From assembly GCF_018139565.1 (NCBI RefSeq), contig NZ_JAGSPK010000003.1, positions 434,001-498,000 of the forward strand: a stretch of DNA of 64,000 nt, written 5' to 3'. This DNA comes from Cognatundibacterium rivi. GTDB taxonomy: Bacteria > Pseudomonadota > Gammaproteobacteria > Burkholderiales > Burkholderiaceae_D. Below, piece after piece: positions 115 through 19,914 of this stretch. Position 1 is the first letter of the stretch; every line of letters begins with the position of its first letter. The notes under the pieces are model-generated. The model ran no database searches and was not told the DNA's origin. It worked only from the letters and a program-made list of their open reading frames with translations. A program made the position numbers and the translations under genes.

Positions 115-189
115 CGCCAGAACCCGGGCTGTGCCGTCATAACGTCAGCCGCAATACAGGCAACCCCATTTTGTTTTTAAAGGAACCGT

Positions 190-825
190 ATGTCTATCGC
201 CCATCTCCGCAAGGATTATCAACAAGCCAGCCTGACCGAATCAGACGTTACCGCTGACCCGATTGAACAATTTGGTATCTGGTTTGATCAGGCATTAAAA
301 GCGGATGCTGCCGAAGCAAACGCCATGAGCTTATCGACTGTCACAGATGACGGACGACCAACATCCCGCATCGTACTGATCAAGGAATTTGATCAACGTG
401 GTTTTTGCTGGTTTACCAATTACGACAGCGCGAAAGGTAAAGATCTGGCAACCAATCCCTACGCGGCCTTGTTATTTTTTTGGTCTGCTCTGGAACGTCA
501 GGTTCGCATTGAAGGCCGCATAGAAAAAGTGTCTTCCGAAGAAAACGATACGTATTTTTATAGCCGCCCATTAGGTAGCCGTCAGAGCGCCAATGCATCA
601 GCCCAGAGCCAGACGATTGCTAATCGCGATCTGCTGGAACAGCAGTTAGCCAGCGTAGTCGGTACCTTTGGCGACCAGCCACCGCGCCCGGAACATTGGG
701 GTGGTTACCGTCTGGTGCCGGAAAAAATCGAATTCTGGCAAGGTCGCAGTTCCCGTCTGCATGATCGTATCGTCTACACCCGTAATGCCGATGGCAGATG
801 GAGTATCGGCCGCTTGCAGCCATAA
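190..825 (+). CDS. pdxH: Pyridoxamine 5'-phosphate oxidase PdxH
   Basis: A 211-aa FMN-dependent oxidase that converts pyridoxamine/pyridoxine 5'-phosphate to pyridoxal 5'-phosphate, the last step of de novo and salvage vitamin B6 synthesis in the cytoplasm. Family landmarks are visible: the N-terminal LRKDYQQ, the FMN-binding stretch [20 protein letters not shown], the [12 protein letters not shown] strand, and the C-terminal [18 protein letters not shown] block that contacts PLP. Length matches the family (about 210-220 aa). The start follows AAAGGAACCGT, a good ribosome binding site. A strong terminator follows at 870-906. pdxA, an earlier enzyme of the same pathway, lies near 42 kb but is not linked to this gene. 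Confidence 0.97.
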
Positions 826-869
826 TCAGATCCCTCGCTCTCTGCTGCGCCGTCTTATATAGCGCACAC

Positions 870-906
870 AAATCCCCCGTCGCTATTGCCTGGCCGGGGG
901 ATTTTC
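870..906 (+). terminator. Rho-independent terminator after pdxH
   Basis: Inverted repeat ATCCCCCG / CGGGGGAT (872-879 and 895-902) with a 15-nt loop, followed by TTTTC. It sits 45 bp after the pdxH stop codon and separates it from the glycosyltransferase gene. Confidence 0.8.
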
Positions 907-1017
907 TTTGCCCCGCACCTGCATTCAAAAGGACGAGAACTACCGCCTCAGATCACGTCATCAAGTCATCACACTGCACTGTTATGCTGAATGATCGTTT
1001 CTGATCAATTCAAATTC

Positions 1018-2169
1018 ATGCGAAAAAAAATCTTGTTGCTCAGCGTTTCTGCGGGGAGCGGGCATAAACGGGCCGCGGAAGCGCTGCTCGCCTGTGCCTT
1101 AGCCGGCGACGCAGAAGCGGAAATACGCCATCTGGATGTGATGGATTTTGTTACCGCCGGATTTCGCAAGATCTATACTGATTTTTATATCAAACTCGTC
1201 AACCGCGCTCCGCTGCTATGGGGCTATCTTTACCATGCAAGCAATGGCGCGCAGGCCAATGGCTTCCTCGAAAAACTGCGCCGTGGCGTGGAAAGACTGA
1301 ATGCCCGCCCGCTGAAGAAAATGCTGACCGGATTTCAGCCCGATGCAATTATCTGCACACATTTCCTGCCAGCAGAAATGCTGTCGCATCTGATCCGTAA
1401 ATCGGAACTGAGCTGCCCAGTGTGGGTACAAGTCACCGATTTCGACTTACACCGTATGTGGGTGCACGACAATATGGCCGGTTATTTTGCGGCGAATGCC
1501 GAAGTCGCTGAACGCATGCGCCAGAATGGCATTCCTGCGCAAAAAATCCATGTCACCGGGATTCCTGTGATGCCAGGATTCACGCAACGGCATGATCGCC
1601 GCACCTGTGCCGCAGAGTATGGCTTAGATCCCCACAAACCAACGGTGTTGCTGATGGGTGGAGGTGCCGGTGTCGGCGATCTCGACAAACTGGCTGCGCA
1701 CTTATTGCGCTCAGAGACGCCTTTTCAACTAATCACACTGGCGGGTAGTAACAAGCAGATGCTGCATAAAATGCAGGCGCTGGCAAAGCATTATCCGGGC
1801 AAGCTGCTGCCACTCGGATTCAGCAACAAGGTTGAACGTCTGATGGCTTGTGCGGATCTGGTCATTACCAAACCCGGCGGCCTGACGACCTCGGAATGCC
1901 TTGCCAGCGGCGTGGCGATGATCGTGACTTCGCCGATTCCCGGGCAGGAAGAAAGGAATGCCGATTTCTTACTCGAACAAGGTGTGGCGCTGAAAGCCCA
2001 CGACCATATCAGCCTTGCCTACCGCCTGAATTTACTGCTCAGCCAACCCGAAAAATTACATGAGATGCGTCGCAAAGCGCTCGCCTTAGGCAAGCCACAT
2101 GCTGCAGCCGATGTCCTGACGCAAGTATTCGGACGACAAGAGGAAAACACAATACATACAACAAACTAA
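1018..2169 (+). CDS. MGDG synthase/UgtP-like GT28 glycosyltransferase
   Basis: A 383-aa GT-B fold glycosyltransferase. The N-terminal half starts with a strand and then SVSAGSGHKRAAEAL (residues 9-23), the signature of the MGDG-synthase/UgtP N-terminal domain. The C-terminal half has MGGGAGVGDL and the nucleotide-sugar site KPGGLTTSECLASG, followed by PGQEERNADFLL. Family members transfer glucose, galactose or GlcNAc from UDP-sugars to diacylglycerol or related lipids at the inner face of the membrane; the real sugar and acceptor cannot be read from sequence. An upstream in-frame ATG at 991 exists, but the strand-forming start at 1018 fits the family better. It precedes an unknown membrane protein gene by 60 bp. 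Confidence 0.8.
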   Translation: MRKKILLLSVSAGSGHKRAAEALLACALAGDAEAEIRHLDVMDFVTAGFRKIYTDFYIKLVNRAPLLWGYLYHASNGAQANGFLEKLRRGVERLNARPLKKMLTGFQPDAIICTHFLPAEMLSHLIRKSELSCPVWVQVTDFDLHRMWVHDNMAGYFAANAEVAERMRQNGIPAQKIHVTGIPVMPGFTQRHDRRTCAAEYGLDPHKPTVLLMGGGAGVGDLDKLAAHLLRSETPFQLITLAGSNKQMLHKMQALAKHYPGKLLPLGFSNKVERLMACADLVITKPGGLTTSECLASGVAMIVTSPIPGQEERNADFLLEQGVALKAHDHISLAYRLNLLLSQPEKLHEMRRKALALGKPHAAADVLTQVFGRQEENTIHTTN

Positions 2170-2229
2170 CGCTGAGCAAACAATCAAAAACTCAAAGATC
2201 AGCACGTCATTCACACTCACTTCTAGCGT

Positions 2230-2709
2230 ATGAATTCATCTTTCAAAAACTTATTTTTAACCCTGTTATGGGTCTTTGTGCTGGCTGTTTTTTTTGCGCA
2301 GGTGGAAATTCAGATAGAAGGTGCAAATGGCTGGGGCGGTAGTCTGCCAACCTGGCGCATAAAAAACCACTGGTTGCTTGATTTGTTCTGGGGTGGTCGC
2401 GCCATGACCGGCTATCACGCATGGGTATTTCCGTTTATCGCCATCTTTTTCCATTTCCCCATCATCTGGATGTCGCAATGGAACTGGAAAATACAAGCGC
2501 GCATAGCCGCATGCATTATCATTTTCTGGATCACCGAAGATTGCCTGTGGTTCGTGATGAATCCCGCGTATGGCATCAGCAGTTTTAACCCCGTGCTGGT
2601 TCCCTGGCATCGCCACTGGCTATGGGGAACGCCCATAGATTACTGGATAGGCGGTGTGGTCGCCATCCTGCTGCTTTGCTATTCCTACAAAAAAGAAAAA
2701 GTCCGCTGA
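2230..2709 (+). CDS. Unknown four-helix membrane protein
   Basis: A 159-aa protein I do not recognise. It shows about four hydrophobic segments (residues about 8-24, 60-78, 88-105 and 137-152), many Trp residues, a conserved-looking ITEDCLWFVMNP motif between helices 3 and 4, and a short basic C-terminus (YKKEKVR). It lies 60 bp behind the lipid glycosyltransferase on the same strand and could be co-transcribed with it. It ends against a convergent gene with a shared terminator. No functional assignment is made. Confidence 0.7.
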   Translation: MNSSFKNLFLTLLWVFVLAVFFAQVEIQIEGANGWGGSLPTWRIKNHWLLDLFWGGRAMTGYHAWVFPFIAIFFHFPIIWMSQWNWKIQARIAACIIIFWITEDCLWFVMNPAYGISSFNPVLVPWHRHWLWGTPIDYWIGGVVAILLLCYSYKKEKVR

Positions 2710-2731
2710 GGCAAAAAACCTGCATCAGCGG
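2703..2731. terminator. Terminator between convergent membrane-protein genes
   Basis: Arms CCGCTGA (2703-2709) and TCAGCGG (2725-2731), extendable by a GCA/TGC pair inside. The left arm overlaps the stop codon of the plus-strand gene. On the minus strand the stem is followed by a T-rich tract (ACTTTTTCTTTTTT), so it best serves the minus-strand gene ending at 2749. Confidence 0.55.
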
Positions 2732-2748
2732 TACTGCGTCTTTTTGTC

Positions 2749-3807
2749 TCAGGCACCTGCACTGTAGGCTTTTTTAGGATCTTCGCTAACGTCATCCGCC
2801 GATGCTGCTGGCGTTATGGCAACCGCAGCATTCTGCGTTTTTTCGGGAATTTTAAAACCCGCATAAGTGCCGGCGCTCATCCCCATTAAGGTCAGAATAT
2901 TGCCGTCAAATTCAGGCATGCTGACATGCTGTACAACATACAAAATAAACAGGACGCCAAACAACAGATTAAACACCAGCATCTGAAAACGGTACAAAGC
3001 CAACCCCTGCGCATCGCTCAGAATATCGCTCCAGAATCCCTGACTTTCGCTGTTAGCAGGAGGCTTAGTTGCATCCACACTGGCGGCAGCGAAATATGTT
3101 GCACTACCGATGCCAAGTAAGCCCAGCGCCTGACTTGATAGGGTCGGAATGCCTTCCCCGACCAGCCACAGCCACATGTAAGAAGCAAAAACGATAAAAA
3201 ACCACCATGCCATCTGCACTCTTGACAAACTGAAACTGCGGCAACGGACAGCAAGATCGGTGACATCGCGCAGCAAACCCGAATCACGCCCGAGGCGCAA
3301 CAATGCAAAGCCGACACCCAGAATAAAGCCGAATCCCAGCAGCAGATACGAAGGACGTAATATCTGCAGACGCAATATCCCATTTGCCAGCGCTACGCCA
3401 CCCGCAGCCGTAGTCACGCTGAGGCTGTAAGGAAGATCGCGGCGAAAGCCATGTTTCGCATCTTTCCACGGCGAGCCGACCAGCAGCTCGCGCATGGTGC
3501 CGAGATCGCTGCCATCGAGCTGCGGCATAAAAAATTGCAAACCATATCCGGTGGCAGCCGGATTGCAATCCATCGGTTTCAGCGGGGTCAGTTGCCCCTG
3601 TATGCGTAATTCCACCACGGCATACTGATCACTGCTCAACTGCTCACAAATACCTGGAGTGGAAATCACGAAACGATGATTGAGTTCAACCGCAACAATA
3701 TCGGTCGAACGCACAGCGTCAGCAGCGCTTGCTGGCAGACCACAGAAAAAAAGGGCAGCAACAAAACATCGTTGCAACGTAGAAGACAGAAAAGACAGCG
3801 CATTCAT
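2749..3807 (-). CDS. Exported/membrane protein paired with a lysozyme, function unknown
   Basis: A 352-aa protein with a clear signal peptide (residues 1-28, ending LPASA-AD), an extracytoplasmic domain of about 120 residues with two Cys, and then about four membrane helices (near residues 155-175, 198-220, 228-248 and 278-305). The last is followed by LMGMSAGTYAGFKIPE, a pattern I associate with a widespread but uncharacterised membrane-protein family. The start at 3807 is chosen because GAGGAGAAAACG precedes it. That ribosome site overlaps the stop codon of the lysozyme gene (TGA at 3820-3818), so the two genes look translationally coupled. It is too large and has the wrong layout for a classical holin, but a role in lysozyme delivery or cell-wall work is possible. 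Confidence 0.75.
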   Translation of the reverse strand: MNALSFLSSTLQRCFVAALFFCGLPASAADAVRSTDIVAVELNHRFVISTPGICEQLSSDQYAVVELRIQGQLTPLKPMDCNPAATGYGLQFFMPQLDGSDLGTMRELLVGSPWKDAKHGFRRDLPYSLSVTTAAGGVALANGILRLQILRPSYLLLGFGFILGVGFALLRLGRDSGLLRDVTDLAVRCRSFSLSRVQMAWWFFIVFASYMWLWLVGEGIPTLSSQALGLLGIGSATYFAAASVDATKPPANSESQGFWSDILSDAQGLALYRFQMLVFNLLFGVLFILYVVQHVSMPEFDGNILTLMGMSAGTYAGFKIPEKTQNAAVAITPAASADDVSEDPKKAYSAGA

Positions 3808-3817
3808 CGTTTTCTCC

Positions 3818-4381
3818 TCAGGCTGCTTGTACAGGTGATGAAAGTGGTACAAGCGGGTCGGCTGGCGACACCACCGGCGTCAAAAATAAATCCCGTTCAG
3901 CCGCTCGACGTTTGACCAATCCCGGTAAGGGTTTGCCATCCGCCATGACCCAGCGGCCGAACTGATCTGCAGCACCGGCACGGTTATTCGCATTGAGCAT
4001 CTTCAGCAACGTTGAACTGCGCAAGTTACCGATGCCAAGATTGAAGGTAAAACTGGTCAACGCACCGAATTCATTGTCATTCAGCGACACCAGCACCACT
4101 GAAGACACATCGCGCCCGGCATTCATCAGATCCGTATGCAACAAAGCCTCGGCCTGAGCGAGCGTAATGCCTCCTGGATACAGGCTTTGCACCTGCGCCT
4201 TATCCGCAGCCCCCTTCAGGAAGCGCCCCTGATAGGTGATCGCATGTCCCCACCCTATAGTCCAGATACCGACGGGATCAAGATAAGGATCGATATTGTC
4301 TGTTGCAGGATTACCGTCCGGTATCCCTTCGTATTGTTTGATCAGGTCTACTGTCGCCTGATTCACATCGCGCAGTGCCAT
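3818..4381 (-). CDS. Phage-type lysozyme (GH24 endolysin)
   Basis: A 187-aa muramidase expected to cut the MurNAc-GlcNAc bond of peptidoglycan. The T4-lysozyme triad is visible: Glu18 in LIKQYEG, Asp35 and Thr41 in YLDPVGIWTIGWGH. The Glu-Asp gap is 8 residues longer than in T4 lysozyme. The middle contains the family-typical LTSFTFNLGIGNLRSSTLL and the end GLVKRRAAERDLF, followed by a Pro/Val-rich tail. The start at 4381 is preferred over upstream starts because CCGGAGGTTGCA sits directly before it. No signal peptide is evident from this start. There are no phage structural genes nearby; it is coupled instead to the membrane-protein gene downstream. Confidence 0.88.
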   Translation of the reverse strand: MALRDVNQATVDLIKQYEGIPDGNPATDNIDPYLDPVGIWTIGWGHAITYQGRFLKGAADKAQVQSLYPGGITLAQAEALLHTDLMNAGRDVSSVVLVSLNDNEFGALTSFTFNLGIGNLRSSTLLKMLNANNRAGAADQFGRWVMADGKPLPGLVKRRAAERDLFLTPVVSPADPLVPLSSPVQAA

Positions 4382-4514
4382 TGCAACCTCCGGAAGAGCG
4401 TACATCGATGCAGCGCCCTGCACCTTGATACCGTTCTCTCCAGACAAAGTGTAACGGAGTTGAAGTCAAGACGAAGCAGAGCAGGTTCCGGAAGAATAGT
4501 ATCAAATAAATATG

Positions 4515-5054
4515 TTAATCAATTAATTTTTTAGCGAAAACCTGACGCGCTTTTGCCACTTTAGGCGCCACCACGAATGCACAATAGCCTTGTTCAGGAT
4601 GCTGGCGATAATAATTCTGATGGTAGTCTTCGGCGATATAAAACATCGGCGCCATCGTAATTTCCGTCACGATAGGCGCATCCCATACCGCAGCCATCGC
4701 CGCGACCACTTCCTGTGCTGTTTTTTTCTGTTGTTCGTCGTGATAAAAGATAGCGGAACGATACTGCGTTCCGACGTCGTTACCCTGACGATTCAGCGTG
4801 GTCGGATCGTGTATCGTAAAAAACACTTCCAGTAATTCACGATAAGAAACAAGAGCCGGGTCAAACGTCAAGCGCACCACTTCTGCATGACCAGTCCGAC
4901 CGGTGCAGATCTGCTCATAACTGGGCTGATGCACGCTGCCGCCGGTATAGCCGGATTCCACTTTCAGCACGCCGCGAATTTGCTGAAATACAGCTTCAGT
5001 GCACCAAAAACAACCGCCACCCAAGGTGGCAATCTCTGTGCCGGGATTCGTCAT
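4515..5054 (-). CDS. msrA: Peptide methionine-S-sulfoxide reductase MsrA
   Basis: A 179-aa cytoplasmic repair enzyme that reduces the S-epimer of methionine sulfoxide in proteins with thioredoxin. The catalytic motif GGCFWCTE (Cys15) is present, together with ESGYTGG, YEQICTGRTGHAEVV and the FFTIHDPTTLNRQGNDVGTQ segment. The C-terminal HQNYY is also typical. The Cys content suggests recycling through a Cys near the C-terminus (GYCAFVV). Length is normal. AGGAATAGGCT lies before the start. It appears monocistronic. Confidence 0.97.
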   Translation of the reverse strand: MTNPGTEIATLGGGCFWCTEAVFQQIRGVLKVESGYTGGSVHQPSYEQICTGRTGHAEVVRLTFDPALVSYRELLEVFFTIHDPTTLNRQGNDVGTQYRSAIFYHDEQQKKTAQEVVAAMAAVWDAPIVTEITMAPMFYIAEDYHQNYYRQHPEQGYCAFVVAPKVAKARQVFAKKLID

Positions 5055-5375
5055 AGCCTATTCCTGATTACGTTAAACAAAGAGGGGCAGAACGAAAGCA
5101 GTCTCTTTCGCAGACTGTCAAATTTCTGACCATCGCTACATTTGTGTCCTTGTGTGAGTATATACAAGCACGAACAGCTTGACAGGCTTGCCCCAGCACC
5201 ACAGACACACCATAAGAAAAACCGAAGCTGTCGCAGTCAGCCCTGGCGTATATATCTCAGGGAGTGGACGATATGACATCAGCTTTATGTAATTAAAATT
5301 ACAATTCATTACACGTTGTTCGTCCCTCTTGCGCTTAAAATTTGCGATCAATATTTTCTGGCAGGAGTGCTTACC
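5055..5375. other. Divergent intergenic region msrA / small unknown gene
   Basis: About 320 bp between diverging genes. I see one clear symmetrical site, TGTAATT-AA-AATTACA at 5288-5303 (listed separately), and no convincing ORF. A 71-codon minus-strand reading frame crosses it but lacks a ribosome site and family features. Confidence 0.5.
5288..5303. promoter_or_regulatory. Palindromic operator-like site
   Basis: Perfect 7-bp inverted repeat TGTAATT-AA-AATTACA, 72 bp before the ATG at 5376. The size and symmetry fit a dimeric repressor or activator site. It resembles, with one extra central base, the TGTAAT-www-ATTACA sites known for RpiR-family HexR regulators. No binding partner can be assigned from sequence. 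Confidence 0.35.
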
Positions 5376-5717
5376 ATGCTTTATCAGGCCATCAGCAAAC
5401 TCAGGGATCAGCTACGCACCGTGTTCCATGTCCGCCGCCAGCGCTTGCTGCCGCCGCCCGGCGCGAAACCGGCATTTGGCAGCACCATCACGCTCGACAG
5501 GCTGAAGATGCAGCTGTTTTTGCCTATCGATTATGAGCAATGGGAATGGCTGACTTTACGCGGCTGGCGCACGCTTGAATCACGCCAGAACCGTCGCCGC
5601 TATTACCGGGTGCCGCGCTCTGCCGTTACGCGTCTGCTGCACGCGACGCCGGATGAGCGCGAATTCGTACATCAGCGCATCGTCGAACACAAATACGATA
5701 AAAAACGGCTGGAATAA
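5376..5717 (+). CDS. Small conserved-looking protein of unknown function
   Basis: A 113-aa basic soluble protein. The start at 5376 follows GGCAGGAGTGCTTACC, a good ribosome site; an in-frame upstream start at 5316 has none. The sequence has a proline/arginine-rich N-terminal part (RRQRLLPPPGAKP), a Trp-rich central block (YEQWEWLTLRGWRTLE) and a strongly basic tail rich in Arg and Tyr. It carries no membrane segment, signal peptide or motif I recognise. It stands alone upstream of the SMC-like operon and may or may not be related to it. Confidence 0.65.
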   Translation: MLYQAISKLRDQLRTVFHVRRQRLLPPPGAKPAFGSTITLDRLKMQLFLPIDYEQWEWLTLRGWRTLESRQNRRRYYRVPRSAVTRLLHATPDEREFVHQRIVEHKYDKKRLE

Positions 5718-5815
5718 GCGAGGACAAACCTCGACTTCGCAGCAACAAGCAACAGCAAGTCAGCACAGCATCAGCCGCCAGCGGCAAACAGGTTTGACGA
5801 GTTTAGCGCACGAGA

Positions 5816-5835
5816 AAACGCCTCATTTCGCTGCC
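5816..5835 (+). repeat. 20-bp direct repeat, copy 1
   Basis: AAACGCCTCATTTCGCTGCC, repeated with one mismatch at 6020-6039. The two copies flank palindromic-box element A. Confidence 0.7.
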
Positions 5836-5860
5836 ATTTTTCCTATAAAAATACAAAAAC

Positions 5861-5932
5861 AGGGGAGTATGTGCCAATAATGCATAGATCTCTACATAAA
5901 CAAAGGGCTTTAAAATATACTCCCCCCAGTAT
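5861..5932. repeat. Palindromic GC-box element, copy A
   Basis: A half box GGGGAGTAT (5862-5870) faces a full 16-bp box ATACTCCCCCCAGTAT (5917-5932), so the ends can pair as a 9-bp stem. Related elements occur at 29058-29135 and 38526-38607. Between the boxes lies CATAAACAAAGGGC (5895-5908), whose reverse complement is also found in copy B. The full box is close to the TACT-G6-N-AGTA operators of RcnR/CsoR-type repressors. Confidence 0.7.
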
Positions 5933-6019
5933 TATTTTGCCTCCGGGAACGATTTTGCGGCCATTTCAGCCAGATTCTGGGTTCTGCCACTGGCGTCAGA
6001 TGGCGTGAAGAGCATCAGT

Positions 6020-6039
6020 AAACGCCTCATTTCCCTGCC
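6020..6039 (+). repeat. 20-bp direct repeat, copy 2
   Basis: AAACGCCTCATTTCCCTGCC, differing at one position from the copy at 5816-5835. It lies 54 bp before the start of the kleisin-like gene. Confidence 0.7.
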
Positions 6040-6093
6040 CTAAAATAGCTTTCAGACAATACTCAAGCCCCTTGCAAGCGGGTAAAATGCCGT

Positions 6094-7461
6094 ATGCAAA
6101 ATTTTAGTGACGACGCTCACGTCCAGACTGAGGAAGACCTCGCTCTGCAGACGTATTTCAAAACTGGTATTTCTCCCGACGACGTTTCCGCCGTTTTCCC
6201 CTTAAAGCGTGCCCAGCCTGTATTGCAGGCATTCACGGCGCTGTTTCATGGTGGCTTCAACGGCGTCTTGTTGCGTCTGCTGGTCTTGCGCGAGCTAACG
6301 GCGGATGTCGAAACGCCATCGCTGAGCCGCGCCGATATCAATGCCAAACTCGGTTATCTGGAGCCGGATGCGCTCGAAACCGTGTTGTCGCGCCTGCGCT
6401 CAACCGGCCTGCTGGTGTGGGATGCGAGTCAGTCGGTGTATCGCATCACGCCGACCGCGCGCAATGTGCTGGCCGCCATAGAATCGCTGCTACACACGGA
6501 AGAAAATAACGATCAGGCCGAGATGAGCTACATGCTGACGCAGGTCGCCGGTGCGCAAGCGGTCGGCGGTGTCTCGGTCGAGCAATTGCACCATCTGCTG
6601 GGCCGCCTGATCGAGCTGACTGAAGAATTTTCCGATGCGATTGCATCCGGCTCTGAATTCCAGTTACGCGCAGCGCAGCAGAAATGGCATACCGCCTGTG
6701 ACTGGGTGGAAAAAGGTTCGCAAATCATTCACGCGATCACCCACGATGAGCGGGCGGATGCGGCCACCCATCGCGCTGCACAGGCCATCGGCCGCGCGCA
6801 GAGTGCGCTGCTGAATATGCAGGGCATGTTTTCGCGCGCGCTGAATCAGATCGAACGGCAACGTGTGCATCTCGGTCAATCGGGCTTATCAACGACCGAT
6901 ATCAAAACCTGGCTGCTGCAAAAAGAAGACCTTGCCGCACTGGCGGACGATGCACTGGCGAACCCGGTCACGCCGCTGTTTATCACGCCATCTGAAATGA
7001 TAGACGTGGCCGAAAGCGAATTGCTGAGCCATCGTGTATCGGCGGTCGCAGGCGCATTACCGACCGGTGAAAATGCTGTCTCGATTGCCAATGATGACAG
7101 CGATGCGCTGCACGAACTCGATCACTGGCTGGCGCTGCTGAGCAAATCAGACCCGACCGAAAAGCCGATCGCATTACAGGATCTTTTACTGCCGGCGAGT
7201 TTTGCAATTGCCTCGTACCGCGCGTCGATGCTGCCTTTGCTGGGCGACGTCAATGAATCGGCGTTACAAGGTGCAACGGCCAATCTGGCGCGCTTGCCGC
7301 TGGTTTTTCAATCCAAAGACAAAATGCAAAAGGTGCAGGATGCCCATATTGCGGCACTTTCCGTTGCCAGCATCAGCGCTGCACCTGCTGCCACTATTCA
7401 CACCATCTCCAGTATCAACAACACTGGTACTGGCATTGGCAAAAACAGAGAAACACCATGA
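6094..7461 (+). CDS. Kleisin-like subunit of an SMC complex (MksF/MukF-like position)
   Basis: A 455-aa, mostly helical acidic protein. An N-terminal winged-helix-like segment is suggested by ADINAKLGYLEPDALETVLS then RLRSTGLLVWDASQSVYRIT (residues about 70-130), followed by long helices with regular Gln/Glu/Ala heptads and a low-complexity Ala/Ser/Thr tail. I do not recognise the sequence itself; the role is inferred from position: it is the first gene of a row whose third gene is an SMC ATPase, as mksF/mukF or jetA precede their partners. Its stop overlaps the next start (ATGA at 7458), indicating translational coupling. In this model it would bridge the SMC heads and bind the KITE subunit. 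It lacks the DUF3375 beginning I would expect of JetA. Confidence 0.65.
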   Translation: MQNFSDDAHVQTEEDLALQTYFKTGISPDDVSAVFPLKRAQPVLQAFTALFHGGFNGVLLRLLVLRELTADVETPSLSRADINAKLGYLEPDALETVLSRLRSTGLLVWDASQSVYRITPTARNVLAAIESLLHTEENNDQAEMSYMLTQVAGAQAVGGVSVEQLHHLLGRLIELTEEFSDAIASGSEFQLRAAQQKWHTACDWVEKGSQIIHAITHDERADAATHRAAQAIGRAQSALLNMQGMFSRALNQIERQRVHLGQSGLSTTDIKTWLLQKEDLAALADDALANPVTPLFITPSEMIDVAESELLSHRVSAVAGALPTGENAVSIANDDSDALHELDHWLALLSKSDPTEKPIALQDLLLPASFAIASYRASMLPLLGDVNESALQGATANLARLPLVFQSKDKMQKVQDAHIAALSVASISAAPAATIHTISSINNTGTGIGKNRETP

Positions 7462-8207
7462 CCGAAGATGCACAAATTCTGATTGCGCGCCTGCTCGCGC
7501 ATCAAACCCTGCGCCGTGAAGATAAGCTGGTCAAACGCGCTTTGTCAGATGAAAATTTCCGTACCGAACTTGATGCCAGACTCAAAGCCTGCGGCATGAA
7601 ATTCGTTGATAACGTGTATGCCGATTACGTCACGCTGGCATTAACGCGCGACAGCGAATCAAAAGTATTCGGCACTAAGGAAACCTGGCAGAACAATAAT
7701 TTCGGCCTCGCCCGCGATGGCGTGGCGCTGCTGGTGGTGTTGTGGTCACTGATTATTTTGCCGAAACGCGAACGCCAGGAAGCGCATCAGCTGGCGGAAG
7801 AAGATCAGAACGATATGTTCGGCAAAGAGAAACCTTTGCCACGCGCCGAAGATACCTCGATCGGCATTTCATACCGCGCATTGCTGGCCGATTTCGGCGA
7901 TAAGCTCGGTAAAAAAACGCGCATGGATATGAACCTTGGCCAACTTGCGCGCGTTGGCTTTATCGAACGCAAAGGCGATCTGATTCTGGAAGGCCCGCTG
8001 CTCGATCTGCTGATGGATACCGACACACTGAAGGACCGCATCATCAATGGTGCATTGTCGGATATTTTCCAGATTCCTGCGGTGCGCACGCCTGCGATTT
8101 TGACTCCAGCCAACGAAGAAACGGACGCCGTGGAAACGCTGGCAAGTGACGACAACCGCGATACGGATACTGATGCAGACGCGCCCCTCAACACCGGAAA
8201 AGAATAA
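7458..8207 (+). CDS. KITE-like subunit of an SMC complex (MksE/JetB-like position)
   Basis: A 249-aa protein lying between a kleisin-like gene (4-bp overlap) and an SMC gene (5-bp gap). The middle reads like tandem winged helices: NNFGLARDGVALLVVLWSLI, then ISYRALLADFGDKL, then LGQLARVGFIERKGDLILEG, as in KITE proteins (MukE, MksE, JetB, ScpB), which dimerise and sit on the kleisin. The C-terminal 50 residues are Asp/Thr-rich and probably disordered. The assignment rests on predicted fold and operon position; no catalytic motif is expected or seen. Confidence 0.65.
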   Translation: MTEDAQILIARLLAHQTLRREDKLVKRALSDENFRTELDARLKACGMKFVDNVYADYVTLALTRDSESKVFGTKETWQNNNFGLARDGVALLVVLWSLIILPKRERQEAHQLAEEDQNDMFGKEKPLPRAEDTSIGISYRALLADFGDKLGKKTRMDMNLGQLARVGFIERKGDLILEGPLLDLLMDTDTLKDRIINGALSDIFQIPAVRTPAILTPANEETDAVETLASDDNRDTDTDADAPLNTGKE

Positions 8208-8212
8208 AACTT

Positions 8213-11041
8213 ATGTTTCATATTAAATCGCTGGAACTGGTGCACTGGGATTACTGGCAGCGCATCAAAAATATTCCCCTCGACGCCAAGATCATTACGA
8301 TTGCCGGACAAAACGGTTCCGGTAAAACTACCTTGCTAGATGCCTTGCGCACCTTGTTCGGGCTCGAATGTTCTATGGGACGTTCTTACAAACACTACGC
8401 CCGCCATTCCGGCCAGCAAACCGCTTGGATACGCGCAGTGGTCGATAACAGTGCGGTGGGTCCGCAGATTTCGAATCGCCCTTTCCGCATGTCCGGGCTG
8501 TATGAAGATGAAGTCACCCTGTTCTGCAAAATAGAAAAAAACGGTGGCGACTGGAAACGTCAGTATCTGATGCGCGGCGGTAAAGTCGAGATCGAGGAAG
8601 TGATCGAAGCGCATGATTGGCTGGGTGTGGAAAGCTACCGCAAACGCTTGTCCCACGCGGGGTTGTCGAATGCGATGGGTAAAGTGCTGGCGCTCGAACA
8701 GGGCGAAACTGACAAGCTGTGCGAATATGCTCCACGTCAGTTACTCGATCTGGTGTTCCAGGTCTTTGGCGACAAAGAAGTGCTGGATGCTTACGATGAT
8801 GCGAAACGTCATCAGCATGATACTGAAGTTGAATTGCAGCGTTTTGAAACTGAACTCGAAGGCGCAAAGGCGAATCTGGAAGGCTTGCGCCTGAAGGTCG
8901 CGAATTACCATCAGTATGAAAGTCTGCAAAAAGAAAAACGTGATCTGCAGGAAGAAATTCTGCCGACACTGCAATACCATGAAGACCTGGTCAAAGCCGC
9001 AGCCACCAGCCAGTCGCTGCGAAACAGCAAGCGCTTATTGAAAACGCAGGATGAAGCTTTATCCGGGCGTCGTCAGCATCTGGCGCAACAGGCGCATGAA
9101 GTGTCGGAAGCCAAGCAAGTGGAAACCGCACTGGAAGCGGAAGAATCGGCGTTGCGTGAAAAACTGCAGCAAATCAATGCCAAGCTGAAACCGCAGGAAA
9201 GTCTGCTCGAACAAAAAAGCCGTCTGCAAAAACTGGCCGCCGAAGCCGACGCCGATGTCGCCAACGTCGCCGATGATTTAGAGAAAAAAGAAGCCGAACT
9301 CTCACGTCAGAAAGCGGAGCGCGATGCGCTCAGCCAGCGCATCGCCAGCGAGATGGATACGATCGCCGCGCTGCAAGGCAAATCCGCCCTGCCCGACCCG
9401 GAAAACGTGCGCCAGATGCGCCGCGCCCTGAACGATGCAGGGATTGCGCATTGCATGCTGCCGGATATTGTCGAAGTCACCGACCCGCAATGGCAAGGCG
9501 CAGTCGAAGGCATGCTGCGTGGCTATACCTCAGTGATTTTGCTCGACAAGGCCAGCGATGCCGCAGCGGCCTACCGCATTGGTGAGAAGCAGAAATACAG
9601 CCACTTCATCGTGCCTGAGCGCATCAGTGCGCCTGTCGTTAAAGACCAGAGCCTGCTGTCCGTCGTGAATTTCACTGCGCAGGCACCTGCCTGGCTGATC
9701 GAACAATTACAACGCGTATCGACTGTCGGCTCGATTGAAGCGGGCATGAAACTGCCGCGTTCGCAAGAATGGATCACGCCCGACGCCTATCATTTTGAAC
9801 GTCGTGGCGGACGCTCGTTGTTTGTCGAAGTATCGCGCTACCGTTTCGGCAATGCCGGTCGTACTCAGCGTCTGGAAGCATTACTGAAATCGCTACCGCG
9901 CCTGCAATCGCAGGAAGACGTGCTGACCATGAACATCAGCAAACTTGCCGGTGAAATCAGCGCCTACAAAGCGCGTCTGGCAGGTGTCGATGCGGCAAAA
10001 GAACTCAGTGCGCGTCATGCCGAATTTGAAGAAGCCCTGCGCAATACGCAACCGCTGAAACAGCAACGCATCGAAGTCGGCAGCCGCTTAGGTGAAATCG
10101 CACCGCTGCTGAAAGCAGCAACCGAACAACGCTCTGTCGCGCATCTGAAGTGGGAACAGGCCAAGGCCGCCATCGCCGATGCCGAAGCGCAATTGCGTGT
10201 GTCAGAAAAACGTCACGCTGAAGAACGCGCCGCGCAATACGAAACCCTGCGCAGCATGCGCGATACCTGGCATACGCTGCCGCCCAACTGGAAGCGCGCG
10301 TCACACCGGCGTGAACTGGTGGCAGAGCACGAAAACGTCCATCAGATCGAATTGCGACTCCGCAGTCTGAGCAATAATCTGGCGCGCGATGACTGGGAAA
10401 CCGACTCCACTGTGGTGGATCAGTACACCCGTCTGAACGCCTTGCTGCAAGGCCGCCAGGCAGAAACCGATGAACGCCGTTATCAGAATAACCGGGCAAT
10501 CGAGGCCACCATCAATGCCCGCGCCGCCTACATGGACAGACTGCGTTACACCATCAAGGCGTACAGCAAAAATATCCGTCAGCTCGGCGAGCTGGCCGGT
10601 ATTGAAGTGCATACTGATCCGGTGAAACTCGAAAATGATGATATTCAGCTGGCGCAGGCCGGTTTGCATGTGCGTTTCAAATTCGATGGCAAAGGCCCTA
10701 TCGGTATGAACGACGGCGAAGCCTCCGGTGGCCAGCAGGTAATGAAATCGCTGATTCTGCTGATCGGTCTGCTGAAATCCGAAGACGGTTCCGGCGGCTT
10801 CGTTTTCATCGATGAACCGTTTGCCCATCTGGATATACGCAATATTCAGCTGGTCGGCGAATTCCTGAAAAATACCGATGCACAGTATCTGATGACCACG
10901 CCATTGACGCATAACACCGACGTCTATGACCCATCAGAACTGACGCTGATCACCAGTAAAAAGAAAAAAGACACAGAATGGGCGCAACCAATTTTTGTCT
11001 TGCAACGCAAGGTGGAAAAAAGCAAGGAACACCGCGCCTGA
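8213..11041 (+). CDS. SMC-like ATPase with hinge and short coiled-coil arms
   Basis: A 942-aa ABC-type SMC ATPase. Visible in order: Walker A GQNGSGKTT (residues 32-40); N-head with the Q-loop region ending near residue 175; a coiled coil rich in Glu/Gln/Lys/Leu to about 390; a globular hinge-like domain (about 392-550, including HCMLPDIVEVTDPQWQGAVE and FIVPERI); a returning coiled coil to about 790; the ABC signature ASGGQQ (837-842); and Walker B plus D-loop FVFIDEPFAHLD (863-874). All catalytic elements are intact. Arms of roughly 200 residues are much shorter than those of Smc or MukB and closer to MksB-type proteins. It is the third gene of a coupled row with kleisin-like and KITE-like partners, suggesting a DNA-loop-forming or plasmid-restricting condensin. 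No MksG/JetD nuclease gene follows. Confidence 0.85.
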   Translation: MFHIKSLELVHWDYWQRIKNIPLDAKIITIAGQNGSGKTTLLDALRTLFGLECSMGRSYKHYARHSGQQTAWIRAVVDNSAVGPQISNRPFRMSGLYEDEVTLFCKIEKNGGDWKRQYLMRGGKVEIEEVIEAHDWLGVESYRKRLSHAGLSNAMGKVLALEQGETDKLCEYAPRQLLDLVFQVFGDKEVLDAYDDAKRHQHDTEVELQRFETELEGAKANLEGLRLKVANYHQYESLQKEKRDLQEEILPTLQYHEDLVKAAATSQSLRNSKRLLKTQDEALSGRRQHLAQQAHEVSEAKQVETALEAEESALREKLQQINAKLKPQESLLEQKSRLQKLAAEADADVANVADDLEKKEAELSRQKAERDALSQRIASEMDTIAALQGKSALPDPENVRQMRRALNDAGIAHCMLPDIVEVTDPQWQGAVEGMLRGYTSVILLDKASDAAAAYRIGEKQKYSHFIVPERISAPVVKDQSLLSVVNFTAQAPAWLIEQLQRVSTVGSIEAGMKLPRSQEWITPDAYHFERRGGRSLFVEVSRYRFGNAGRTQRLEALLKSLPRLQSQEDVLTMNISKLAGEISAYKARLAGVDAAKELSARHAEFEEALRNTQPLKQQRIEVGSRLGEIAPLLKAATEQRSVAHLKWEQAKAAIADAEAQLRVSEKRHAEERAAQYETLRSMRDTWHTLPPNWKRASHRRELVAEHENVHQIELRLRSLSNNLARDDWETDSTVVDQYTRLNALLQGRQAETDERRYQNNRAIEATINARAAYMDRLRYTIKAYSKNIRQLGELAGIEVHTDPVKLENDDIQLAQAGLHVRFKFDGKGPIGMNDGEASGGQQVMKSLILLIGLLKSEDGSGGFVFIDEPFAHLDIRNIQLVGEFLKNTDAQYLMTTPLTHNTDVYDPSELTLITSKKKKDTEWAQPIFVLQRKVEKSKEHRA

Positions 11042-11229
11042 CCTGTGGTAAGAGTAGTTCCGTGAGGAATTACCGACAGTCTGAAAAAATATCTGGTGCA
11101 GCCCGCAGTTGCACTGGGGTATCGCTCATAAAACCCGTACAATGTTTTTTTTGAAACATCTGGCAGTGTATGACTACTGAAGGGGTAACAGCCCCCACCG
11201 TCGTTACATTGCAAAAGGAGAGGTGCGGC

Positions 11230-12381
11230 ATGAGCATGGTAACGGATATCGCGACGGACGTCGTCAGCGAGGCATTGATTGTCAACGAAGCAGCTAAGAC
11301 GGCGAACAGTTCTCATACCGCCCATGCACATGAACATGGTGGTAATTGCGCCAATTGCGGCACACTTCTGACCGGCCCTTATTGTCATGCCTGCGGGCAG
11401 TCGGCGCACATTCACCGCTCTCTGCTACATATGACCGAAGAGTTTCTGCATGGATTTCTGCACTTTGAAACAAAGGCATGGCGCACTATTCCGGCACTGA
11501 TTTTTAAGCCCGGGCAACTAACCCGCAATTATATTCAGGGACAACGAACTCGCTATGTGTCGCCGCTGGCATTATTTCTGTTTTTGATTTTTCTGATGTT
11601 TTTCGTCTTTTCAATGACAGCGAATCACCCTGAAGACAAGCTATCCTCTGCAACGAAAAATAAGGTCAGCATCAACAACAATAACGCTAACGCTATTGGC
11701 GGTAGTAAAGAAAAAATACAGCAGGTCGATGACAGCAGTGTTCCGTCAGGAATAGATAAAGAACTGAGTGAAACCGCGCGCACGTCACAAAAAACGGATA
11801 ATGAAAAAAATCAGAAGAATAATCCTGCAGCGGCTGCTCAGCCTGCGGCAATCGCTACCGAGACTGATAACGCGGCAACGGATAATGAGATTGTTGATGC
11901 CGGCGTACTGATCAAAAAAATCGACCAGCAGTTTGACAATAGAAAAATCACTTCGACCATACCAAGATTGGAACAGAAAATCAGAAGCGCTGTTAAAAAT
12001 CCTGAACTGATTCTCTACAAAATGAAAAGTAATGCGTCGAAATTTGCTTTTCTGCTGATGCCAATGTCGCTGCCATTTTTGTGGTTGCTGTTTATATTCC
12101 GACGTCAGTACGTCATGTTTGACCATGCTGTTTTTTCGCTCTACTCATTATGTTTCATGAGCCTATTGCTGATGTGTATTGCCCTGCTGAACAGGTTCGG
12201 CTTCAGCATAACTGCAGCGATGCTGTTCGCATTTGTGCCGCCGGTACACATGTATACGCAGCTAAAACAAGCGTATCAGCTGAGTGTCAAAGGCGCGCTC
12301 TGGCGCACGTTTGCATTACTGTTTATTGCAACATGCGCGCTAACTTTTTATGCGATTGTTGTACTGTCGATCAGTGTTTAA
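11230..12381 (+). CDS. DUF3667-type zinc-ribbon membrane protein
   Basis: A 383-aa protein with an N-terminal zinc ribbon (CANCGTLLTGPYCHACGQ), the adjoining DUF3667 pattern FETKAWRTIPALIFKPGQL then RYVSPLALFLFL, one membrane helix (about residues 115-135), a long polar Asn/Lys/Thr-rich linker, and three or four helices at the C-terminus. Function of the family is unknown; a membrane sensor or trafficking role is often suspected. The start at 11230 is chosen for AAAGGAGAGGTGCGGC just upstream rather than the ATG at 11170. It lies 188 bp behind the SMC-like gene and is probably a separate unit. Confidence 0.8.
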   Translation: MSMVTDIATDVVSEALIVNEAAKTANSSHTAHAHEHGGNCANCGTLLTGPYCHACGQSAHIHRSLLHMTEEFLHGFLHFETKAWRTIPALIFKPGQLTRNYIQGQRTRYVSPLALFLFLIFLMFFVFSMTANHPEDKLSSATKNKVSINNNNANAIGGSKEKIQQVDDSSVPSGIDKELSETARTSQKTDNEKNQKNNPAAAAQPAAIATETDNAATDNEIVDAGVLIKKIDQQFDNRKITSTIPRLEQKIRSAVKNPELILYKMKSNASKFAFLLMPMSLPFLWLLFIFRRQYVMFDHAVFSLYSLCFMSLLLMCIALLNRFGFSITAAMLFAFVPPVHMYTQLKQAYQLSVKGALWRTFALLFIATCALTFYAIVVLSISV

Positions 12382-12446
12382 AATACTTGTCTTCTGATCC
12401 CTGAAAGCGCGGACAGTACACTTCGGCATCAGTATTTTCTTAAAAG

Positions 12447-12483
12447 AAAAAGCCCCGCTAAAATATATTGCGGGGCTTTTTTT
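12447..12483. terminator. Bidirectional terminator
   Basis: Stem AAGCCCCGC / GCGGGGCTT with an AT-rich loop, flanked by A-rich and T-rich tracts on both sides. It serves the DUF3667 gene (plus) and the DksA-type gene (minus), which converge here. Confidence 0.9.
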
Positions 12484-12499
12484 ACGGCAGTCTGGTAAT

Positions 12500-12877
12500 T
12501 TACATGCTGGAATGTGGATGCAAATGCAGACGATGGTCGTTGGCTTCGAGTTTGCTCTGACAATCGATGCAACGTTCGGCTGTCGGCTCTGCCTCTAAAC
12601 GCGCAAAAGGAATGGCGCTGCCACATTCACTGCAAATATCGGCGACGTTTTCATTGAGTCTGGCCTGCGCCCGCTGCAAAGCCTGCCACTCCGCATGATG
12701 ATGCAGATATTGCGCCATCTCATCGGCATTCAGCGCATCATTCGTGAGACGATCGCCCTCACCGGATTGTATCTGCAAACTTTCAGGATTATGTTGCCGC
12801 AATTCCTCTTGTATGCTTTGCTTTAAGCCATCCAGTTTCTCTTTTAAGCTGTTTTGTTGTGCACTGTTGAGACTCAT
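12500..12877 (-). CDS. TraR/DksA-family C4 zinc-finger protein
   Basis: A 125-aa protein with an N-terminal coiled-coil hairpin (about residues 5-80) and a C4 zinc finger whose Cys pairs are CSEC and CIDC, about 17 residues apart. This is the DksA/TraR layout, in which the coiled coil enters the RNA polymerase secondary channel and changes promoter response, usually with ppGpp. At 125 aa it is shorter than classic DksA (about 150 aa), so it is more likely one of the accessory paralogues than the main DksA. A His-rich tail (HRLHLHPHSSM) follows the finger. GGGAGAAAAC precedes the start. Confidence 0.88.
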   Translation of the reverse strand: MSLNSAQQNSLKEKLDGLKQSIQEELRQHNPESLQIQSGEGDRLTNDALNADEMAQYLHHHAEWQALQRAQARLNENVADICSECGSAIPFARLEAEPTAERCIDCQSKLEANDHRLHLHPHSSM

Positions 12878-13227
12878 GTTTTCTCCCTTAAATCAATGAC
12901 CTGCCAAGTATTCAGATTACTCTGCTCAAAGTAAATCAGTCTTGATTAAACACAATCCGGATGTCGTCAATCTCTTCTTAAAACAAGAATTTCAATATCT
13001 GACCTGCATGGCGAATATTCCGGTCTACGTTACCACACGTCTGCTTGCGATGGCAACGCGGGGCTTTAGGTCACAGCAGATGTGAAGCCTCATGCATATG
13101 AAAGCATAAATAGCTCCCCACGAGCATCATCGTCGTGAAATAATTCTGTTGTACGCTTTTATTCCTCTCGCAAGCAGTCGGCCTCCTGTGGCGGGCTGTT
13201 TTATTAACCTCCATTGAACATCAGAAC
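12878..13227. other. Divergent intergenic region, no gene seen
   Basis: 350 bp between the DksA-type gene and the phosphatase gene. It contains a modest inverted repeat CACGA/TCGTG near 13118-13136 and no supported ORF. Promoters for both flanking genes must lie here, but I cannot place them reliably. Confidence 0.4.
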
Positions 13228-14910
13228 ATGAAACCGATGAAGCCCTCCCTGCTTTGTCTGCGCCCTGTGCGCAGGCTGTTTTTACTTACTTGTCTTGTTG
13301 CCGCCAGCAGCCTGGCAACGTTTCCGGCGATTGCAGCAGAAAAACCTGCGCAACCAAAACTGGTCGTGGTGCTGGTGGTCGATGGTTTGCCGCAAGAGCA
13401 AGTCACGCGTTATCGTGATCAGTTCGGACAAGGCGGATTCCGCCGTTTGCTGGATCAGGGAGCATGGTTCAGTAATGCCCATCAGGCGCATGGCGTGACA
13501 GTCACTGCGGTTGGTCACGCTGCCGTACTGACTGGCGCGTATCCTTACCAGCACGGCATTATCTCGAATGACTGGACCGATACGAAAACACTGGAATCGA
13601 TGTACTGCACGCAAGACAATGCGCACAACTATATCGGCGATGAAACCAAACCCGGCGCCGGAACCTCGCCTGCTAATTTACGCGCCAGCACAGTCGGCGA
13701 CGAATTACGCTATGCAACCGGTAACCGGGCGAAAGTAATCACGGTATCAGGTAAGGATCGCGGCGCGATTCTGCTCGCAGGCAAAGCGGGGACGGCGTAT
13801 ATGTATATGGGCAAATCCGGCAATTTCGCCAGCAGCACCTACTATATGCAAAGCCACCCGCAGTGGGTGCAGCAATACCATGCCAGCAAGCCACAGGACA
13901 GATTCTATGGCAAAGAATGGCGTCCCTTACTTGCCGATGCATCTTATGCAGGCGACGCCAGCGATGATCTGATTGCAGACGAAAAAAACCGTTTTCCATT
14001 TAAATATGAAAGCAAATCCGGCAAACCGGATGCGGAATATTACGGCAAGCTGTACACCGGTCCGTATCTCGATGAAATGACGCTGGACTTTGCCCGTGCC
14101 GCGGTAGAAGGTGAAAATCTGGGCCGTAATCCTGCCGGTGTACCTGATGTGCTGGGCGTCAGCTTATCCAGCCATGATTATGTGAACCATAGTTTTGGTC
14201 CGGAAAGCCGCATGTCGCACGATCATTTGCAGCGACTCGATCGTCTGCTGGCGAATTTTTTCAGCTATCTGGATAAACGTGTTGGTCTTGATAACACCAT
14301 GGTCGTACTGACTGCCGATCATGGTTTTCCGAACGTGCCGGAATTCTCACAATCCATCAAACGTGATGCCCAGCGTCTCGATGGTAAGCAAATGTCAGCA
14401 GCATTGAGTAAGCATCTGGCAGAAAAATTCGGGCAGGAAAATCTGGTCAGAAAATGGTCGCCGCCGAATGTGATTCTGGATTACGCACTGATAGAGCAAA
14501 AGAATCTGAAACGGGAAGAAGTAGAAAATACGGCTGCACGTTTCCTGTTGAATTACCCTGGCGTGGCGAATGCGTTCACCCGTACTCAACTGGAAAACGG
14601 CAATCTGCCGGCCACCCGCATCGGAACCCTAATGCAACGCGCGTGGAACCGTCAGGTATCCGGAGACATCATGGTGGTGATCAAACCTTTCTGGTATTTC
14701 AGCAGCGGTAAGCAAGGGACTTCGCATGGTTCACCCTACTCGTATGACACGAATGTACCGCTGATGATCATGGGCAAACCGTGGATTAAAGCAGGCGCTT
14801 ACGGTCAGTATGCCGAGGTCATGGATATTGCACCGACACTCGCGCATCTGTTGCGTGTGCGTCCGCCATCAGCTGCCGAAGGACGTGTGCTGACAGAAGC
14901 ACTGCAGTGA
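13228..14910 (+). CDS. PafA-like alkaline phosphatase family protein (periplasmic)
   Basis: A 560-aa alkaline-phosphatase-superfamily hydrolase with an N-terminal signal peptide (about residues 1-37, ending PAIA-AE). Metal and catalytic elements visible: VVLVVDGL (metal Asp), the nucleophile region GVTVTAVGHAAVLTGAYP (Thr nucleophile as in PafA and nucleotide pyrophosphatases), SSHDYVNHSFGP, TADHGFPN and HGSPYSYDTNVPLMIMG near the end. It most likely hydrolyses phosphomonoesters in the periplasm, though phosphodiesterase activity is possible in this superfamily. Length suits the PafA group. No Pho-box was recognised upstream. It converges on the POT transporter gene. Confidence 0.85.
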   Translation: MKPMKPSLLCLRPVRRLFLLTCLVAASSLATFPAIAAEKPAQPKLVVVLVVDGLPQEQVTRYRDQFGQGGFRRLLDQGAWFSNAHQAHGVTVTAVGHAAVLTGAYPYQHGIISNDWTDTKTLESMYCTQDNAHNYIGDETKPGAGTSPANLRASTVGDELRYATGNRAKVITVSGKDRGAILLAGKAGTAYMYMGKSGNFASSTYYMQSHPQWVQQYHASKPQDRFYGKEWRPLLADASYAGDASDDLIADEKNRFPFKYESKSGKPDAEYYGKLYTGPYLDEMTLDFARAAVEGENLGRNPAGVPDVLGVSLSSHDYVNHSFGPESRMSHDHLQRLDRLLANFFSYLDKRVGLDNTMVVLTADHGFPNVPEFSQSIKRDAQRLDGKQMSAALSKHLAEKFGQENLVRKWSPPNVILDYALIEQKNLKREEVENTAARFLLNYPGVANAFTRTQLENGNLPATRIGTLMQRAWNRQVSGDIMVVIKPFWYFSSGKQGTSHGSPYSYDTNVPLMIMGKPWIKAGAYGQYAEVMDIAPTLAHLLRVRPPSAAEGRVLTEALQ

Positions 14911-14926
14911 TCTGATTACTGTAATT

Positions 14927-14961
14927 AAAAAAAGCCGCATGAAAAATCATGCGGCTTTTTT
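14927..14961. terminator. Bidirectional terminator
   Basis: Stem AAGCCGCATGA / TCATGCGGCTT with a short A-rich loop, preceded by an A-tract and followed by a T-tract. Shared by the phosphatase (plus) and the POT transporter (minus). Confidence 0.92.
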
Positions 14962-14986
14962 GTTTTCAATGGCCTGACTTGTTGCT

Positions 14987-16543: not shown

Positions 16544-16722
16544 CGACCTCTCCAGTTTCATTGTTGTGTTGAACAATAAGAAAACGGCCCTTGGTAAAGG
16601 CCGTCTGTAAAAAACATCTTTATCCTGCTGTATTTTCGCCCAGAATTTGTGGGCGAAGTATCCGGATTTGCCGGTATCACGTCAAGCTTCAGAAGCGTCA
16701 GCAAGCAGATTGATTTTCCGTT

Positions 16723-19911: not shown

Positions 19912-19914
19912 GGT

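Follow-up and report, generated by a model that had tools for sequence, protein, structure and literature searches.

The trio of genes at positions 6094-11041 (+ strand) of the window, a 64,000-nucleotide stretch of the Cognatundibacterium rivi genome (contig NZ_JAGSPK010000003.1, positions 434,001 to 498,000), encodes a kleisin-like protein (K1), a KITE-like protein (K2) and an SMC ATPase, from open reading frames of 455, 249 and 942 amino acids. We place it, with a probability of about 0.6, in a divergent lineage of Wadjet/MksBEF, with the TOPRIM nuclease JetD as an optional and exchangeable part and with a nuclease-free branch that has been kept as a JetABC-like complex acting on the chromosome. 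An earlier note on this DNA, made from the sequence alone, had described three genes with a 4-bp overlap and a 5-bp gap, and the coordinates agree: the K1 and K2 genes share 4 bp (7458-7461), and the K2 and SMC genes lie 5 bp apart (8208-8212). The features of the locus are:

6094..7461, + strand: K1, kleisin-like (JetA/MukF-like) subunit, 455 amino acids (open reading frame; predicted layout)
6193..6447, + strand: predicted N-terminal winged-helix domain of K1, about residues 34-118 (AlphaFold2 model)
7174..7413, + strand: predicted C-terminal winged-helix domain of K1, about residues 361-440 (AlphaFold2 model, low confidence)
7458..8207, + strand: K2, KITE (JetB-like) subunit, 249 amino acids (open reading frame; AlphaFold2 model, Foldseek)
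7806..7835, + strand: conserved QxDMFGxxKP loop of K2, between its two predicted winged helices (alignment)
8213..11041, + strand: SMC (JetC-like) ATPase, 942 amino acids (SMC_N, PADLOC JetC1, PDB sequence match)
8306..8332, + strand: Walker A GQNGSGKTT of SMC (motif)
9389..9892, + strand: JetC-type hinge region of SMC, approximate (profile-profile match)
10721..10738, + strand: ABC signature ASGGQQ of SMC (motif)
10805..10822, + strand: Walker B FIDEPF of SMC (motif)
11042..11169, + strand: site holding the nuclease gene in JetD-positive relatives; intergenic here, then the DUF3667 gene

The subunits and their relation to JetABC

The SMC protein is the intact 942-residue ATPase that the earlier note had seen. 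Walker A (GQNGSGKT) starts at residue 32, the signature ASGGQQ at 837 and Walker B (FIDEPF) at 865, and all three are kept in 109 of 109 full-length members of this SMC's own family. The protein matches Pfam SMC_N (expectation value, E, of 2e-13), and in PADLOC it scores best with models of type I JetC (JetC1, E 1e-20). LmuB models match it as well (E 1e-18), and in the relative L146 the top PADLOC model is mad3 (1.3e-21), narrowly above JetC1 (3e-21). When a profile of 17 relatives was compared with PDB sequences, JetC (8dk2_C, E 1.2e-8) ranked above canonical SMC and Rad50, the best stretch of that match being the N-terminal 48 residues. Residues 382-622, which take in the hinge region, aligned with a profile of four type I JetC proteins in a profile-profile comparison at E 9.4e-24. 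Judged by this alignment, the hinge is of the JetC type.

The window K2 gave no PADLOC match at E 10 and no convincing Pfam or NCBIfam family, and phmmer and profile searches of PDB sequences, pooled with those of K1, returned only weak matches to a regulator, an antitoxin and unrelated chains. Two of 17 K2 relatives matched one JetB1 model in PADLOC (best E 0.0023). An AlphaFold2 model of K2, built from 51 sequences (predicted local distance difference test, pLDDT, 62), has the helix-strand pattern of tandem winged helices. Foldseek, run against 350,542 PDB chains, placed the JetABC chains 8dk1_E, 8as8_C and 8dk1_F at ranks 1-3 (E 2.8e-5 to 7.9e-5), followed at ranks 4-6 by MAGE/Nse1, Nse1-Nse3-Nse4 and ScpB entries; of these, 8dk1_E and 8as8_C bear the name JetB in the PDB sequence records. 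The pattern [DE][MLI]F occurs at the site of the QxDMFGxxKP loop in 112 of 112 K2 proteins. The model and the fold search support a JetB-like KITE fold of tandem winged helices for K2, and JetB chains stand above every other solved structure in the search, as would be expected of the KITE-like subunit that the earlier note had proposed.

K1 matched no Pfam family (DUF3375 included) and no NCBIfam family at E 1, which bears out the remark that the first subunit does not begin like DUF3375. Its only PADLOC match was MkoB (E 0.003). Among PDB sequences its profile had a weak match, at E 0.0037, to Rv3488, a transcriptional regulator, which goes with the predicted N-terminal winged helix. The AlphaFold2 model consists of an N-terminal winged helix, a long helical bundle, a low-confidence linker and a C-terminal winged helix. 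MukF and JetA share the layout winged helix, helical bundle, linker, winged helix. MukF entries appeared at Foldseek ranks 20 and 28. As a control, the type I JetA (JetA1) profile likewise found no PDB sequence at E 0.01, so the failure of the K1 sequence says little about JetA. Predicted layout and gene order together suggest that K1 is a kleisin. The kleisin-like reading of the first gene therefore stands in part: the predicted winged helix-bundle-winged helix arrangement agrees with it, but the fold matches are weak and non-significant.

JetD beside the trio

K2 was found in 22 of 150 genomes of an order-wide draw, the C. rivi genome included. Of the 22 loci, 21 were examined, the window among them and that of genome G067 excepted; 17 of the 21 loci entered alignments A1-A3. 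A JetD-like gene lies directly after the SMC gene in four of the 21 (L034, L041, L043 and L044), that of L043 running off the contig end. The question raised in the earlier note, whether a JetD or MksG gene ever adjoins the trio across Burkholderiales, is thus answered with yes, in a minority of loci. The fifth positive of this draw is a Variovorax plasmid fragment, L024. There (9986-12561, on a megaplasmid) SMC is reduced to its C-terminal half beside an IS1071 transposase gene, and JetD is still next to it; one gene of the ThiF family and another that is weakly JAB-like lie close by.

In each of 15 loci measured, JetD lies directly after SMC, the two genes overlapping by up to 64 bp or standing up to 74 bp apart, and JetD also follows SMC in L187. 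Four of four aligned family JetD proteins matched PADLOC JetD1 models, and the family JetD profile aligned with type I JetD at E 6e-17. By these sequence matches, the family JetD is homologous to type I JetD. With simple patterns, the TOPRIM motif DxDxAG was found in 13 of 14 family JetD proteins (not in L173) and ENRxSF in 11 of 14 (not in L170-L172).

Across 300 genomes of the order, JetD matched in ten; all but one of the ten hold a single SMC of the trio family, the exception being G633, which has none. A family-level draw of 145 genomes held K2 in 68, with one K2 match per genome, and JetD in five, all of them K2-positive, which leaves 63 K2-positive genomes without a JetD match. No JetD was found in the best 80 of at least 573 loci from named organisms (Undibacterium, Janthinobacterium, Duganella and relatives, some of them metagenome-assembled genomes), where 72 contigs reach at least 1500 bases past SMC and three end before SMC does. 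Nor was there a JetD match in the window's genome, the best few candidates having been scored in most genomes. The gene following SMC there encodes a DUF3667 protein (from 11170) and no nuclease, as judged by a Pfam scan of the window; the earlier observation that the trio lacks a nuclease subunit is upheld. No substitute effector was detected beside the trios, the largest neighbour cluster being present in 27 of 102 loci clustered. All 14 genomes with JetD beside a family SMC hold exactly one SMC of the family. Trios with JetD and trios without it therefore seem to represent one type of locus rather than paralogues.

Several loci carry other arrangements. Extra genes interrupt the trio in L029 (9263-9946, a 227-residue protein of no assigned kind), L036 (9055-9591, GNAT acetyltransferase-like) and L032 (9087-9836, on the opposite strand, periplasmic binding protein-like), all as judged by eye. 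Classical Wadjet loci (L175 and L177) were found in two genomes, G046 and G649, that also hold JetD-positive family members. Part of a JetD-like gene lies on a 42-kb Diaphorobacter plasmid (L181, 1042-1731), a record unmatched in the plasmid SMC search, and in a Vibrio plasmid Wadjet (L179, 6641-11363) the SMC gene is apparently split by an IS3-family transposase gene.

Conservation and distribution of the nuclease-free trio

K2 matched in 40 of 43 Undibacterium genomes and in 34 of the 35 of good quality, one match being a remnant. In that case, a complete one-contig Undibacterium genome (L190 of G765, 9724-13062), SMC is intact, K2 is limited to residues 1-94 and no K1 lies in the stretch. 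Between the window and L045, the ratio of nonsynonymous to synonymous substitution rates (dN/dS) was 0.030 for K1, 0.059 for K2 and 0.010 for SMC. In seven nuclease-free pairs, SMC values of 0.010-0.063 were below 35 of 37 values for neighbouring genes, and the trio genes as a whole fell between 0.01 and 0.13, K1 reaching 0.128 in one pair. A pair without JetD from a JetD-positive genus (L144 and L145) was also low, at 0.09, 0.19 and 0.06. Frames are broken in single draft loci, namely K1 of L070 and SMC of L105. The nuclease-free trio is near-universal in Undibacterium and strongly constrained, and the recurrence of K2 in the order and the genus, together with low dN/dS, confirms that the open reading frames of the trio are not chance.

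Outside the order the family is scarce. It was found in none of 320 other genomes of a class-wide draw and in six of 398 genomes of a phylum-wide draw, the C. rivi genome included. Two of these, G926 (which has JetD) and G1042 (with none nearby), are not members of the order; another, the newly found G1137, is inside the order and has no JetD nearby. A range restricted to Burkholderiales, as the class-wide draw alone would have it, is contradicted by these two genomes; the family is found mostly in Burkholderiales. A class-wide JetD search matched three of 321 genomes, comprising a classical Wadjet (G409, L152), a weak match (G302) and G317. The latter lies outside the order, and its 11.9-kb contig (L151, 2336-5859) bears fragments of both JetD and K1, in broken frames, with no K2 or SMC. 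In viral contigs, the K2 and JetD profiles gave 22 and 26 pattern matches, none of them a relative. Phage records searched with SMC gave no match, and plasmid records searched in the same way yielded only two Variovorax replicons with an SMC fragment.

Probable exchange or loss of JetD within one genus

In genus g115, six loci share their upstream genes (L149 in part only, on a short contig). Two of them, L146 and L148, carry one JetD allele (A), L149 and L150 carry another (B), and L144 and L145 have no JetD. Alleles A and B are 49-50% identical, and the SMC proteins of L149 and L150 share 92-93% identity with their counterparts in L146 and L148; across loci with allele A, allele B or none, SMC is 92-96% identical to that of L146. 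The presence of JetD alleles of about 50% identity behind SMC genes of 92-93% identity suggests that the nuclease module has been exchanged between loci of this genus. Between SMC and the downstream hydrolase gene of L144 and L145, blastn and tblastn found no remnant of JetD (a single tblastn match had E 0.47). The hydrolase gene is common to L144, L145, L146 and L148 and was not found in the L149 and L150 stretches examined. A second genus, g79, likewise combines a locus without JetD (L039) with loci that have it (L170-L172).

JetD was placed on a FastTree phylogeny of the trio with midpoint rooting and 51 tips, 13 of them with JetD. Oxalobacteraceae were represented by every fourth locus and L187-L189 were not included; alignment A6 used 50 of 52 selected loci, L111 and L118 having been left out by hand. 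L174 yielded SMC and JetD only. Free parsimony required five changes in JetD, compared with a mean of 11.8 and a minimum of 8 in 1000 sets of shuffled labels, and a model of losses only gave eight JetD-free clades under midpoint rooting. Distances of JetD and SMC were correlated over 14 loci (Mantel r 0.86, reached in 0 of 999 permutations), a test that closely related tips inflate.

Relation to known systems

The trio shares with Wadjet type I (JetABCD, MksBEFG or EptABCD) the order kleisin-KITE-SMC(-JetD), the kleisin being so placed by its predicted layout only, as well as a JetC-type hinge, a JetB-like KITE fold and a homologous JetD in sister lineages. It differs in the length of its SMC (942 amino acids, compared with 1145-1195 in four type I loci with an unbroken SMC gene), in the failure of JetA and JetB models to recognise K1 and K2, in the lack of JetD here and in its near-core status in the genus. 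Like MksBEF of Pseudomonas aeruginosa, described as a second SMC system in PMC7485682, it is a nuclease-free kleisin-KITE-SMC trio beside SMC-ScpAB; unlike MksBEF, its JetD-positive and JetD-free forms appear orthologous and coexist in one genus.

With MukBEF it has in common a KITE-type SMC complex, and MukF structures are among the weak fold matches of K1. Membership in MukBEF is ruled out by a MukB profile score of 15 bits against a cut-off of 23, and SMC is far shorter than the 1486 positions of the NCBIfam MukB model. SMC-ScpAB likewise joins an SMC ATPase with a kleisin and a KITE protein; membership there is ruled out by an SMC_prok score of 70 bits against a cut-off of 567, and ScpA is encoded not in the operon but elsewhere in the genome. 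That genome, of 3.92 Mb, has Undibacterium species as its nearest named relatives, and the window K2 is 96% identical to that of U. aquatile. Besides ScpA it holds a separate 1174-residue frame that matches SMC-like ATPases at E 0.014 and that we take, on this match, as the probable canonical SMC. The trio is thus probably a second SMC system. Lamassu, in which the effector LmuA and LmuC accompany LmuB, was also considered, and neither K1 nor K2 matched a Lamassu model; the scan of the flanking genes was confined to Pfam and NCBIfam. Promoter predictions were at chance level, predicted terminators were slightly above chance with none placed convincingly, and Rfam gave no match in window positions 1-20000.

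The review PMC10586767 proposes a defence system as the ancestor of MukBEF and MksBEF, while calling the evolutionary relationship unresolved, and states that P. aeruginosa MksBEF likely lost JetD. Among the matches listed in literature searches on Wadjet, MksBEF and JetD loss, no description of the trio lineage was found; subscription papers were outside this scope, and one may be in print.

Discussion

The earlier note had proposed a possible distinct condensin class. A wholly distinct class is not supported: the JetC-type hinge and the occurrence of JetD in sister lineages point instead to a nuclease-free branch of a divergent Wadjet-like lineage. Its broader suggestions are borne out: a relationship to MukBEF, MksBEF and JetABC, the same gene order, the lack of a nuclease and a possible role as chromosomal organiser. 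The three proteins do not all fall clearly into a known subfamily, because K1 and K2 match no JetA or JetB model convincingly.

In the arrangement that we favour, K1 would serve as the kleisin-like subunit, K2 as the KITE subunit and SMC as the ATPase with a JetC-type hinge, and JetD would be an optional, exchangeable fourth subunit of the lineage. The JetD-free branch to which the window belongs would have been retained in the near-core chromosome of Undibacterium and relatives. There it may form an ATP-driven, probably dimeric motor that extrudes loops on the chromosome alongside canonical SMC-ScpAB, and that organises or helps to segregate the chromosome without cutting, as MksBEF does in P. 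aeruginosa. We infer assembly of the complex, loop extrusion and the chromosomal role; the picture of a loop-extruding motor deprived of its cutter is drawn by analogy.

A number of points weigh against this reading. Function is deduced from sequence, models and analogy. The K1 model is poor (pLDDT 63), its top Foldseek match, a Wadjet-II JetABC chain, is not significant (E 0.033), and a profile comparison of K1 with JetA1 gave nothing (E 0.3), so that the kleisin is unrecognisable by sequence; weak JukB matches occur instead in eight of the 17 K1 relatives, the best of them at E 7.7e-5. The match between the K2 profile and JetB1, though colinear, is weak (E 0.03). The 34 of 35 good-quality Undibacterium genomes count the remnant in G765 as a match, and the strong purifying selection would fit any steadily used function. 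The loci from named organisms are the best-scoring 80 and are thus biased towards near relatives, the scoring of JetD candidates was limited, in most genomes, to the best few, and the direction of the five JetD changes is unproven on a midpoint-rooted tree.

The trio might alternatively defend against plasmids or phages without cutting, sensing small circular DNA by complete loop extrusion and then silencing or compacting it. Homology to Wadjet and the JetD-positive sisters speak for such a role, and compaction of viral circles without cleavage by human Smc5/6 is discussed in PMC10586767. A near-core locus that is under strong purifying selection and gives a single K2 match per positive genome of the family draw is not what this would predict; no widely shared neighbour offers itself as another effector, and the viral contigs searched held no relative. 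The trio's near-core status, its single copy and the strong constraint on it speak more for a chromosomal role than for defence, which we consider unlikely.

Another account reverses the history, the nuclease-free trio being ancestral and JetD having been gained several times from one special JetD lineage. It would explain why most family members examined have no JetD, and it accords with alleles that can be exchanged independently of the trio. Repeated gain fits poorly with JetD directly after SMC in 15 of 15 loci measured, with JetD and SMC distances that agree across lineages and with JetD-positive branches that are scattered, mostly deep, on the tree. Loss is the simpler reading, and JetD may have been lost rather than gained in the window's own branch; we regard repeated gain as improbable.

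That the trio recruits, in trans, a nuclease encoded at an unlinked site seems very unlikely. Classical Wadjet loci (L175 and L177) do coexist with JetD-positive family members in two genomes, but the window's genome has no JetD-like match among the candidates scored, and in the family draw JetD occurred only in K2-positive genomes, 63 of which had none. A decaying remnant of a Wadjet defence locus, as the Undibacterium genome that lost K1 and most of K2 and the broken frames of L070 and L105 might suggest, is hardly credible and largely refuted by ATPase motifs intact in every full-length SMC and by dN/dS values that stay far under 1 for every trio gene, the JetD-free pair of a JetD-positive genus included (0.06-0.19).

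A divergent Wadjet/MksBEF lineage with an optional nuclease remains our preferred reading. More tentatively, and at slightly less than even odds, it may be a fourth, unlisted Wadjet-like type, mainly of Burkholderiales. Its nuclease would be a detachable module, subject to repeated loss and to swapping at one locus, and its motor would have been recruited as a near-core organiser of the chromosome in Undibacterium and relatives. If this is true, the trio would represent a transition of an SMC complex from defence to housekeeping that can be seen within a genus, independent of MukBEF and MksBEF. In PADLOC, K1 and K2 of the lineage are not convincingly recognised by any model. Closely related chromosomes carry this motor together with nuclease A, with nuclease B or with neither, so that these near-isogenic natural variants make the effect of JetD loss on a Wadjet motor testable.

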